Source: Mesorhizobium sp. (GTDB taxonomy: Bacteria; Pseudomonadota; Alphaproteobacteria; Rhizobiales; Rhizobiaceae). Taken from it: 41,607 nt of DNA. The notes under the pieces were generated by a model. That model did no database searches and was not told the DNA's origin. It saw only the letters and a program-made list of their open reading frames with translations. Position 1 is the stretch's first letter. The number at the start of each line of letters is the position of its first letter. This document shows positions 12,086 through 34,968 of the stretch, one piece after another. The stretch is taken from contig JAIPUZ010000085.1 of assembly GCA_022833215.1 (NCBI GenBank), forward strand, positions 1-41,607, in the 5' to 3' direction. Both the position numbers and the translations under genes were made by a program.

Positions 12086-12283
12086 AGGTGACTCGTTCGA
12101 CCCTTGTTCCGGCCCGGCGATAAGGCCGGTGCGGATCGGGAGCATCCTGATGGCTCAGGCATGTCGCGAGGTTCCATGCCCCCATATGAGCCCCGCCAGA
12201 AAACTCTTATTCGGTGTCGGCTAAAGCTTTATTAAAAAGCCGGATAGTCTGGATATCGGAAGTCGAACCCGGAGGAGAAAAGC

Positions 12284-32163: not shown

Positions 32164-32190
32164 TTGAAAACGCAACTCGGAACATATAGT
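32164..32190 (+). promoter_or_regulatory. promoter of the radical SAM/UdgX operon
   Basis: TTGAAA, 15-bp spacer, TATAGT. The predicted start falls at about 32197-32199, which is the A of the ATG, so the mRNA would be leaderless. The -10 lies inside the LexA box. Confidence 0.55.
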
Positions 32191-32194
32191 GAAC
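32180..32194. promoter_or_regulatory. LexA (SOS) box, alphaproteobacterial type
   Basis: GAACATATAGTGAAC is a perfect direct-repeat GAAC-N7-GAAC, the reverse complement of the GTTC-N7-GTTC box known for LexA of Alphaproteobacteria. It overlaps the -10 and ends 4 bp before the start codon. Confidence 0.8.
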
Positions 32195-32198
32195 ATGC

Positions 32199-33428
32199 AT
32201 GAAAAAGACGCTGCAAGAGCGGCTCGCCATTCTCGCCGACGCCGCGAAATACGACGCTTCCTGCGCATCGAGCGGAACTGAAAAGCGCGATTCCACCAGA
32301 GGTGGGATCGGTTCGACGCAAGGTTCCGGCATCTGCCACGCCTATGCGCCGGACGGGCGCTGCATTTCCCTGCTGAAGATCCTGCTCACCAACTTTTGCA
32401 TCTACGATTGCGCCTATTGCATCAACCGGTCGTCCAGCAATGTCGAGCGGGCGCGGTTCACGCCGCAGGAGGTGATATGGCTGACGCTGGAATTCTACCG
32501 GCGCAACTACATAGAGGGCCTGTTTCTGTCCTCCGGCATTATCCGCAGCGCCGACTACACGATGGAACAGCTCGTGCGCGTGGCCCGCGAATTGCGGCTG
32601 AGCCACGGGTTCAGGGGTTATATCCATCTCAAGACGATCCCCGAGGCTTCCGTTGGATTGCTCGATGAAGCCGGGCTCTATGCCGACCGGCTGTCGATCA
32701 ACATCGAACTGCCGACCGACAACGGCATCGCCGAACTCGCGCCGGAAAAGGAACCGGGACAGATCCGCCGCGCCATGGGCGACCTGCGCCTGCGCATCGA
32801 GGATGCAAGCGAGCCGACAAAGGTTACGAAGCGGCGCAAGCGGTTTGCCCCGGCCGGGCAATCGACGCAGATGATCGTCGGTGCCGATGGCGCGAACGAT
32901 GCGACGATCCTCGGCACGTCATCGCGGCTCTACAGCAGCTATGGCCTCAAGCGGGTCTACTATTCGGCCTTCAGCCCGATCCCCGATGCATCTTCCCGCC
33001 TGCCTCCTGCGCGGCCGCCGCTGATGCGCGAACACCGCCTGTATCAGGCCGACTGGCTTTATCGCTTCTATGGCTTCGGCATCGACGAGATAACCTCCGC
33101 ACGGCCGGACGGAATGCTCGACCTCGACCTCGATCCCAAGCTGGCCTGGGCGCTGGCGCACCGGGAGGACTTTCCCGTGGACGTCAACCGGGCCTCTCGC
33201 GAGATGCTGCTTCGGGTGCCGGGACTGGGCACGAAATCGGTGTCCGCCATCATTGCCGCCCGCCGCCAGCGCAGTCTCGGGCTCGACGATCTGGCACGGC
33301 TGAACATTTCGGTCCGCAAGGTACGCGCCTTCCTGTGCGCTCGCGGGTGGACGCCGCTGCGCCTTATCGACCGGTCCGATCTGCGCGATCTCTTCACGCC
33401 GCAGCCCGAGCAGATGGTGCTGCTGTGA
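32199..33428 (+). CDS. putative DNA modification/repair radical SAM protein
   Basis: A 409-residue radical SAM enzyme of the TIGR03916 type, which is regularly found next to UdgX-type proteins. The Fe-S cluster motif is FCIYDCAYC (Cys67, Cys71, Cys74, CxxxCxxC). The C-terminal part carries a helix-hairpin-helix DNA-binding motif (MLLRVPGLGTKSVSAIIAARR, about residues 335-360). The reaction is unknown. No ribosome-binding site precedes the ATG, which fits a leaderless mRNA from the overlapping promoter. Its stop codon overlaps the GTG start of the next gene (GTGA), so both proteins are made together. Confidence 0.9.
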   Translation: MKKTLQERLAILADAAKYDASCASSGTEKRDSTRGGIGSTQGSGICHAYAPDGRCISLLKILLTNFCIYDCAYCINRSSSNVERARFTPQEVIWLTLEFYRRNYIEGLFLSSGIIRSADYTMEQLVRVARELRLSHGFRGYIHLKTIPEASVGLLDEAGLYADRLSINIELPTDNGIAELAPEKEPGQIRRAMGDLRLRIEDASEPTKVTKRRKRFAPAGQSTQMIVGADGANDATILGTSSRLYSSYGLKRVYYSAFSPIPDASSRLPPARPPLMREHRLYQADWLYRFYGFGIDEITSARPDGMLDLDLDPKLAWALAHREDFPVDVNRASREMLLRVPGLGTKSVSAIIAARRQRSLGLDDLARLNISVRKVRAFLCARGWTPLRLIDRSDLRDLFTPQPEQMVLL

Positions 33429-34957
33429 GTGCGCATGTGTGTCTGCATCACGCAGCAGACCTTGGCGAGTGGCGCGATGCGGCGCGTTCGCTGCTTCTGG
33501 CCGGCATGCCGCCGGAGGAGGTGGAATGGTCGCGGTCCGATGCGGATCTTTTTGGCCGAGCGCCGACCGAGGTACCGCCGCCCGGCCAGAACGCCACGCC
33601 ACCTTCCGTGCCCCGTCGTTTTCTCGACCTGGCCGAGGCCGTGGTCTGCCACAGCGATCCCGGTCGCTTCTCCCTGCTTTACAGAACCTTGTGGCGGCTG
33701 CAGGACGATCCCCATCTGATCGGTTTTCTGCCCGATCCTGACATGCAGCGCCTGCATCGCATGGAAAAATCCGTGCGCCGCGACTGCCACAAGATGACGG
33801 CTTTCGTGCGTTTCCGTGAAATTGCCGGACGGTCAGGAGACCGCCGCCGTTTCGTCGCCTGGTTCGAGCCCGATCATCATGTCGTTGCCCGCACGGCCCC
33901 CTTCTTTGCAAAACGCTTTGCCGACATGGACTGGATGATCCTCACGCCGAAAGGCAGCGCGGGTCTGGAGAATGGTCAGCTTGCGCTGTCGGAAAAACCT
34001 GCGGCGCGCCCGGACCTGTCGGATGAAACAGAGGGGTTATGGCGCACCTACTATGCCTCGATCTTCAACCCGGCACGGCTGAAGGTGAAGGCGATGCAGG
34101 CGGAGATGCCAAAAAAATACTGGAAGAATCTTCCCGAGGCATCCCTGATTCCCGCACTTGTCGCCGGTGCCGGACAGCGCGCTGCGGACATGGTCCACCG
34201 GCAAAGGGAGCTTGCCGCGCCTGCCTTTCATGATCGGCTTGCTGCCCGCCGGTCCGATACCCGGGAGGCTGCGCAGACAGAGGCGGCGGGGGTGATTGCG
34301 ACAGATCTCGATGAATTGCGCAGACACGCTGCCGCCTGCACGCGATGCCCATTGCACTGCAACGCCACCCGCACGGTGTTCGGAGAGGGGCCGCCCCGCG
34401 CCGATCTCATGGTTGTCGGGGAGCAGCCGGGCGACATCGAGGACCTGACCGGCCGACCCTTCACCGGTCCGGCCGGTCAGCTTCTCGACAGGACTTTGGC
34501 TGAACTCGGAATCGAAAGGAAAAAGCTCTGGCTCACCAATGCGGTGAAACATTTCAAGTTCGTTGCCCGGGGCAAGAAGCGCCTCCATCAGAGCCCGAAT
34601 CGTGGCGATATCGATCATTGCCGCTGGTGGTTGAAACGCGAGATCGAACTGGTCAGGCCAAAGCTCATTCTGGCACTGGGGGCCACTGCGGTCGAATCTC
34701 TGACTGGAAAGCGAGCTTCGGTCACGCCATTGCGCGGTCAACTGATCGACACGCTGTTCGGGGTAAGGGCGCTGGTGACATGGCACCCGGCCTATCTGCT
34801 GCGTCTGCCAGACCCGACGCGCGCAGCGGCGGCGGCCGAGCTTTTCCGGCACGATATCGGCAAGGCTTCCGAAATGGTCTCGACAGGAGAGATGGTGCCC
34901 CCGGCAGGGATCGAACCCGCGACCTTCGGTTTACAAAACCGCTGCTCTACCAGCTGA
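33425..34957 (+). CDS. DUF4130 (TIGR03915)-UdgX fusion protein
   Basis: A 510-residue protein. The N-terminal half (about 1-265) is the DUF4130 or TIGR03915 DNA metabolism domain (MEKSVRRDCHKMTAFVRFRE, WFEPDHHVVARTAPFFAKRF). The rest is a UdgX-type uracil-DNA glycosylase: GEQPGDIEDLTGRPFTGPAG (332 on), a cysteine cluster CTRCPLHCNATRTVF, KKRLHQSP (His388, at the position of the His that covalently traps uracil-DNA in Mycobacterium UdgX) and TWHPAYLLRLPDP. Start GTG 33425 overlaps the radical SAM stop. The last 21 residues (from VPPAGIEPATFGLQ) are read antisense through tRNA-Thr. Confidence 0.9.
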   Translation: MSAHVCLHHAADLGEWRDAARSLLLAGMPPEEVEWSRSDADLFGRAPTEVPPPGQNATPPSVPRRFLDLAEAVVCHSDPGRFSLLYRTLWRLQDDPHLIGFLPDPDMQRLHRMEKSVRRDCHKMTAFVRFREIAGRSGDRRRFVAWFEPDHHVVARTAPFFAKRFADMDWMILTPKGSAGLENGQLALSEKPAARPDLSDETEGLWRTYYASIFNPARLKVKAMQAEMPKKYWKNLPEASLIPALVAGAGQRAADMVHRQRELAAPAFHDRLAARRSDTREAAQTEAAGVIATDLDELRRHAAACTRCPLHCNATRTVFGEGPPRADLMVVGEQPGDIEDLTGRPFTGPAGQLLDRTLAELGIERKKLWLTNAVKHFKFVARGKKRLHQSPNRGDIDHCRWWLKREIELVRPKLILALGATAVESLTGKRASVTPLRGQLIDTLFGVRALVTWHPAYLLRLPDPTRAAAAAELFRHDIGKASEMVSTGEMVPPAGIEPATFGLQNRCSTS

Positions 34958-34968
34958 GCTACAAGGGC
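34893..34968 (-). tRNA. tRNA-Thr (anticodon TGT)
   Basis: Minus strand cloverleaf: acceptor GCCCTTG / CGGGGGC, D-arm GCTCAGCTGGTAGAGC, anticodon loop TTTGTAA (anticodon TGT, reads ACA), T-arm GCGGGTTCGATCCCTGC and encoded CCA at 34893-34895. The 3' end of the DUF4130-UdgX frame runs through it on the other strand. Confidence 0.95.

Follow-up and report, generated by a model that had tools for sequence, protein, structure and literature searches.

Pairs of genes assigned to COG4277 and COG1573 have been reported as SOS-controlled in Alphaproteobacteria and Verrucomicrobia, and are predicted to be so in Bacteroidetes, with a suggested role against misincorporation by SOS polymerases (PMC8565304, citing da Rocha 2008 on Caulobacter and Erill 2016 on Verrucomicrobia). 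The same source gives the alphaproteobacterial LexA motif as GTTC-N7-GTTC. DUF4130 is predicted to be an enzyme related to mutagenesis and is associated both with SplB-like radical SAM proteins and with uracil-DNA glycosylases (PMC3765255). UdgX, once it has excised uracil, bonds covalently to the abasic site (PMC10359453). Leaderless mRNAs number 375 in Caulobacter (PMC4117421) and 171 in S. meliloti (PMC3616915), and they are known in Alphaproteobacteria from PMC5756330 as well.

The window analysed here is a 41,607-nt stretch of Mesorhizobium sp. DNA (contig JAIPUZ010000085.1), and the part of it immediately 5′ of a radical SAM gene is, with a probability that we put at about 0.8, the promoter-operator of an SOS operon giving a near-leaderless mRNA, whose start would lie within about two bases of the AUG. 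The SOS box, the promoter letters, their conservation, the overlap of the two genes and the catalytic residues of UdgX can all be read from the sequence itself. With the operon of PMC8565304 the locus shares the gene pair, the class of regulator and the presumed role in DNA repair, and the novelty that a first, sequence-only reading attached to an SOS-linked radical SAM enzyme was overstated, as SOS control of the COG4277-COG1573 pair is already in print there. The passages of that paper on the pair are, however, silent on an operator over the -10 element, on leaderless mRNA and on a glycosylase of the UdgX type, and it is the near-leaderless start that is the less expected part. To the known alphaproteobacterial leaderless mRNAs the likeness is in the AUG start, the lack of a leader and transcription from the first base of the codon (predicted here), and the difference from the Caulobacter and S. 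meliloti sets is that the promoter here is joined to an SOS operator; LexA has no mention in the main text of PMC4117421 or PMC3616915, just as SOS has none in that of PMC10359453 or PMC10776899. In the open-licence literature, outside which most subscription papers lie, we found neither a report of UdgX together with a radical SAM protein nor a description of a leaderless SOS promoter in Alphaproteobacteria.

The promoter region in the window

As its frame is closed by a TGA at 32190-32192, the radical SAM gene can start no earlier than the ATG at 32199, and residue 5 of the resulting ORF is where the TIGR03916 alignment begins; an out-of-frame ATG (32195-32197) comes just before this start. 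Only 66 nt separate the upstream ORF from this start, and operator, core promoter and start codon fit in about 40 bp. On the forward strand, TTGAAA (32164-32169), read as the -35 element, ends 29 nt before the ATG, which is the canonical 17 + 6 + 6, and a spacer of 15 nt leads to TATAGT (32185-32190), read as the -10 element. The latter is inside the predicted LexA operator GAACATATAGTGAAC (32180-32194, forward strand), a perfect GAAC-N7-GAAC that ends 4 nt 5′ of the ATG and is assigned from its sequence and from its conservation in the family. Direct reading of the letters confirms the earlier claim of a TTGAAA-N15-TATAGT promoter with such a box over its -10, and the feature by which members of the alphaproteobacterial LexA regulon are recognized, a perfect GAAC-N7-GAAC or GTTC-N7-GTTC overlapping a promoter, is present at 32180-32194. 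A consensus promoter scan at 16-18 nt spacing returned no sigma-70 promoter at the site because the spacer is 15 nt. From the position of the -10 element and the geometry in relatives, the predicted transcription start is at 32197-32199 (forward strand), with a leader of 0-2 nt.

Conservation of the operator and the identity of its regulator

Three sets of loci, related so that counts are not independent, bear on whether the box has been kept. The named set comprises the window and the best 80 relatives listed from the genome collection (81 loci). The family sample comprises 199 genomes, of which 92 have a match and 91 a match above the cut-off; upstream DNA was read for all 91, and nine places below the cut-off, including the sole match of genome G082, were left out. 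The phylum sample comprises 398 genomes, 99 with a match and 84 with one above the cut-off, all 84 being read and places below the cut-off left out. The 55 same-class loci of the phylum sample and the 91 of the family sample have 6 loci in common, and the named set overlaps both. Judged by these shared loci and the named set, the class is probably Alphaproteobacteria and the family probably Rhizobiaceae in a broad sense. A perfect box precedes the radical SAM homologue in every one of the 91 family loci, and is within 150 nt of the start in 55 of 55 same-class loci (own genome, genus, family, order and class pooled). In the named set it is within 60 nt of the start in 79 of 81, and by eye the two others, L049 (Azospirillum) and L051 (Niveispirillum), have a one-mismatch copy. 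The 75 boxes of the named set that have the same orientation also favor particular letters within the N7, with T at position 2 in 68, A at position 3 in 67 and T at position 7 in 49. Whether orthologous promoters lack the box, a point raised in the sequence-only reading, has thus been checked, with the box present in all 91 family and all 55 same-class loci. The gene itself is patchy: two of the 8 other same-genus genomes listed have the family and six do not. Carriers include Caulobacter vibrioides, with a match in the family sample, and Ensifer adhaerens (locus L057).

Outside the class the GAAC-N7-GAAC box is found at none of the 29 loci of the phylum sample. There, CTGT-N8-ACAG occurs within 120 nt of the profile start in 19 of 29 and the looser CTG-N10-CAG in 5 more (24 of 29 in total), with neither in the remaining 5; farther upstream in the same DNA, 9,883 bp hold no strict and one relaxed match. 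Those counts are from the profile start, and become 16 strict and 21 strict or relaxed when taken from the start rule, which at three of the loci chose a GTG that lies within the box. CTG-N10-CAG is the SOS box of other Proteobacteria, and because it replaces GAAC-N7-GAAC outside the class, LexA control appears to have been retained though the LexA motif differs. A LexA gene is present in the same genome (TIGR00498, 177.7 bits, at C15:42919) with its own box 61 nt before its ATG. The earlier suggestion that LexA controls this cassette is supported by these sequence comparisons, that is by the box at 91 of 91 and 55 of 55 homologues together with a box-bearing lexA, and the operon is very probably under LexA control.

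Two other accounts of the box have to be set against this. That it is a chance match, with the operon outside LexA control, would gain from the window alone, where two matches are seen against a shuffle mean of 1.16 and 34 of 100 shuffles reach at least two, and from the 160 matches found genome-wide, although the reversed pattern yields 63. The background density in the remainder of the 80 named loci, however, is 19 in 709,722 bp or 0.0016 per 60 bp, which is what the 91 of 91 and 55 of 55 have to be compared with, and another SOS box takes over outside the class; the site is more than chance because it is conserved, which the local match could not show, and the probability left for coincidence is next to negligible. 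Conservation disposes of chance unless another factor reads the same repeat, and a direct-repeat repressor other than LexA draws what credit it has from LexA binding here being a prediction. Against such a repressor, the motif is the published alphaproteobacterial LexA motif (PMC8565304), similar boxes in this genome precede lexA and the DNA polymerase IV gene (both profile matches) as well as uvrA and ssb (by eye), and outside the class the box is the SOS box of the other lineage, so that a regulator other than LexA is scarcely probable. The window's second perfect GAAC-N7-GAAC (12095-12109, reverse strand) lies near a possible start of a long ORF, and as its N7 is GC-rich it is perhaps a chance occurrence.

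The two proteins

The first gene (32199-33428, forward strand) encodes a radical SAM protein of 409 aa that matches NCBIfam TIGR03916, rSAM_link_UDG, at 572.7 bits (cut-off 343.5), and COG4277 is presumably the family to which it belongs. Pfam PF04055 is also above its cut-off, and a match to the helix-hairpin-helix entry PF12836 is weak and below it. The radical SAM motif, C67-x3-C71-x2-C74 (CxxxCxxC), is present in all 43 of the chosen aligned members, and three cysteines outside it, C22, C46 and C55, are invariant in the same 43 and are a candidate second metal site. Residues 20-51 of the structure model are of low confidence, and the folds that match it best are those of generic radical SAM enzymes. 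The association with DUF4130 is that described for SplB-like radical SAM proteins (PMC3765255); the difference is that the protein here matches only TIGR03916 in NCBIfam (at E 0.001 or better, in libraries that may hold no usable SplB entry) and that HydE heads its fold matches in the PDB, where TM-scores are low. Spore photoproduct lyase is absent among the best 50 of 1,244 PDB fold matches, in a set that may likewise hold no usable SplB entry. Any particular radical SAM chemistry proposed for the protein is rather improbable.

The second gene (33425-34957, forward strand), whose GTG start overlaps the radical SAM stop codon as GTGA, encodes a 510-aa fusion of DUF4130 and UdgX, with TIGR03915 and TIGR03914 both above cut-off. 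The arrangement is common in the named set: an adjoining ORF of at least 380 aa is present at 69 of 81 loci, the other 12 giving no such ORF, and with starts chosen by script the overlap is 4 or 1 nt in 58 of the 69. Aligned to M. smegmatis UdgX (6ajo), the window protein keeps GEQPGD and KKRLH, and its motifs, GEQPG (motif A), KKRLH (the R-loop, K-x-R-x-H) and HPAYLLR (motif B), parallel the GEQPG, K-x-R-x-H and HPxxLLR of the mycobacterial enzyme (PDB 6ajo, 6ail and others; PMC10359453), from which it differs in being fused behind DUF4130 and encoded beside a radical SAM gene. Among the chosen members the R-loop histidine is kept in 31 of 31 and GEQPG in 30 of 31, and Foldseek aligns the model with UdgX structures at TMt 0.83-0.93 and 41-43% identity. 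The protein probably traps uracil DNA covalently. For the DUF4130 part, the 50 fold matches listed are uracil or thymine glycosylases and one phage DNA polymerase, with none that names a DUF4130 relative. The UdgX gene is overlapped at its 3′ end, in antisense, by a tRNA-Thr gene (34893-34968, reverse strand), and the last 20 or so residues of the fusion are read from the tRNA complement; they are absent in the 13 relatives compared at their ends and are of low model confidence.

Distance between promoter and start codon among relatives

With the A of the ATG counted as +1, a -10 element standardly sits at -12 to -7. Across the 91 family loci the distance from box end to ATG is 2-7 nt at 64, 11-17 nt at 22 and 20-32 nt at 5, and for these 5 an earlier in-frame ATG after the box would, by eye, give 2 or 14 nt. 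Starts were set by a rule that prefers ATG and picks the one nearest the profile start, so that the in-frame ATG at 91 of 91 loci is partly built in. At the 36 loci where the box ends at 2 nt, T-12 and A-11 are present in 35 and T-7 in 32, and box and -10 are there tied together. The 15 loci where it ends at 14 nt separate the two: T-12 (at 14 loci) and A-11 (at all 15) are in a TA-rich element of its own outside the operator, T-7 not being kept (4 of 15). Among 34 unique same-class loci with the box end 13-30 nt upstream, 18 have TA at -12, 11 at -10 and 6 at -13, and the 18 compare with a mean of 2.0 and a maximum of 9 in 20,000 shuffles. By eye, a -10-like stretch persists at -12 in a few loci whose box overlies or adjoins the -35 (L207 and, more weakly, Asaia L077 and L083). 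On a FastTree tree of 132 proteins, in which 42 of 129 inner branches are weak and placement was assigned manually at 20 loci, operator placement needs 13 changes and the 14-nt-like type 4.

Spacing in the window departs a little from the commonest type. Among the 64 close-box family loci the gap from -10 to ATG is 6 nt in 36 and 7-11 nt in 28, and the window belongs to a subgroup of 28 loci with the box end 4-7 nt before the ATG and the -10 at 8-11 nt from it. Of the 27 other members, 24 carry a TTGAC whose end is 29-32 nt from the ATG and 3 lack TTGA, the window having its TTGAAA at 29. As the window's -10 is at -14 to -9, a gap 2 nt longer than in the 6-nt type, and its spacer is 15, a 2-nt leader is just as probable as none; transcription from 32195 would make an out-of-frame AUG come first. 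A start at or beside the ATG, as claimed in the sequence-only reading, is supported by the -10 letters holding their distance from the ATG when the operator is 12 bp farther upstream, and this geometry suggests that the window's transcript probably starts within 3 nt of the ATG.

Not all relatives can share this arrangement. The box is 81-84 nt upstream at 7 of the 14 same-order loci and 22-27 nt upstream at six Erythrobacter-like loci, and two Paracoccus loci (L067 and L068) have a GTG start with AAGGGA about 6 nt before it, as if loss of the AUG had required a Shine-Dalgarno site; because of these, some relatives cannot be leaderless. At the Erythrobacter-like loci L096-L099, L106, L109 and L223, where the box is 14-27 nt from the ATG, an inverted repeat GGAACAC...GTGTTCC is seen by eye, in most of them, between box and start. 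The existence of relatives that must have a leader gives weight to the alternative that LexA controls the operon with transcription starting farther upstream, so that an ordinary or Shine-Dalgarno-less leader is made and the box near the ATG blocks from there; the failure of the consensus scan to find a sigma-70 promoter and the paucity of Shine-Dalgarno sites at distant-box loci also fit it. It does not account for a TA that holds its place, -12/-11 from the ATG, under both positions of the operator, or for the TTGAC at 29-32 nt in 24 of the 27 subgroup loci, and in the window it would have to be accommodated in the 66 nt between the upstream ORF and the ATG, so that an upstream start is unlikely. 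With the near-leaderless start preferred, it is a tentative further possibility, at somewhat under even odds, that leaderless initiation is itself selected, with a LexA operator that covers the -10 or the -35 or falls in the spacer, and a promoter nearly fixed from the AUG, across Alphaproteobacteria; the shift of the operator in steps of about one helical turn would be part of the same tentative reading.

Ribosome binding sites and other SOS genes

That no ribosome site precedes the ATG is true of the window, where the Shine-Dalgarno duplex energy is -3.3 kcal/mol (29 same-family recA starts have a median of -7.1), but as evidence for a leaderless mRNA it is unspecific. With -5 kcal/mol or better taken as strong pairing and one of 30 recA loci (L179) left out, the fraction of strong pairing is 0.03 of 65 loci with the box at 1-3 nt (2 of 65, counts being from rounded fractions) and 0.00 of 28 at 4-7 nt. 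It is 0.24 of 38 at 10-30 nt and 0.12 of 8 (about 1 of 8) beyond 30 nt, compared with 0.86 of 29 recA starts (25 of 29), 0.10 of 29 outside-class loci (about 3 of 29) and 0.14 for shuffled upstream sequences. Because distant-box and outside-class loci are equally poor, the test does not discriminate leaderless loci.

Other SOS genes give no support to a leaderless start as a general trait of such genes, as the boxes of uvrA, ssb, the SplB-like gene, lexA, recA and the DNA polymerase IV gene are placed otherwise. In this genome the distance from box to start is 151 nt for uvrA, 104 for ssb and 24 for the SplB-like gene (all three named by eye), and 61 for lexA. Within 350 nt upstream of the profile start of its recA there is no perfect box, which speaks against the SOS reading of the operon. 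Family recA has a perfect box in 14 of 30 loci, 170-258 nt before the profile start, and none in the other 16. For the DNA polymerase IV gene (profile match; family loci L361-L390), GTTC-N7-GTTC is near the start in 25 of 30, in 25 of 25 cases with the orientation opposite to that of the usual radical SAM box, and by eye it lies over the transcription start behind a separate -10. By eye, further box-bearing loci of this genome (L343, L345 and L348) show an SRAP-like protein beside a divergent 118-aa ORF, a divergent uvrA-ssb pair that has two boxes, and another radical SAM gene, which is SplB-like. The table of the Streptomyces venezuelae LexA regulon (PMC9380542) includes a radical SAM gene, vnz_31145, which may belong to the same family.

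Proposed mechanism and meaning

LexA binding, induction, the exact 5′ end and the chemistry are what we infer from these features, and the following sequence of events would join them. Bound to the direct repeat at 32180-32194, LexA would mask both the -10 and the transcription start and so block RNA polymerase, and on DNA damage its self-cleavage would free the promoter. The mRNA would then begin within about two bases of the AUG, with ribosomes starting at this 5′-terminal, or nearly 5′-terminal, codon in the absence of a Shine-Dalgarno site. Coupled translation through the overlapping stop and start codons would yield the radical SAM protein together with the DUF4130-UdgX fusion. UdgX would excise uracil and stay covalently bound at the site, and, as a guess, the radical SAM and DUF4130 parts may act on the same or a related lesion or may process the UdgX-bound site or its parent lesion.

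What began as a guess from one genome becomes a testable rule, that of a conserved and probably damage-induced operon with its operator in at least two placements and its -10 nearly fixed from the AUG. If leaderless initiation is indeed selected, damage-induced translation would begin at 5′-terminal AUGs, possibly by intact 70S ribosomes, and would deliver an SOS-induced covalent uracil trap, UdgX, together with its radical SAM partner. As UdgX welds itself to uracil-derived abasic sites, its being under probable SOS control with an uncharacterised radical SAM enzyme offers a place to seek its physiological job.
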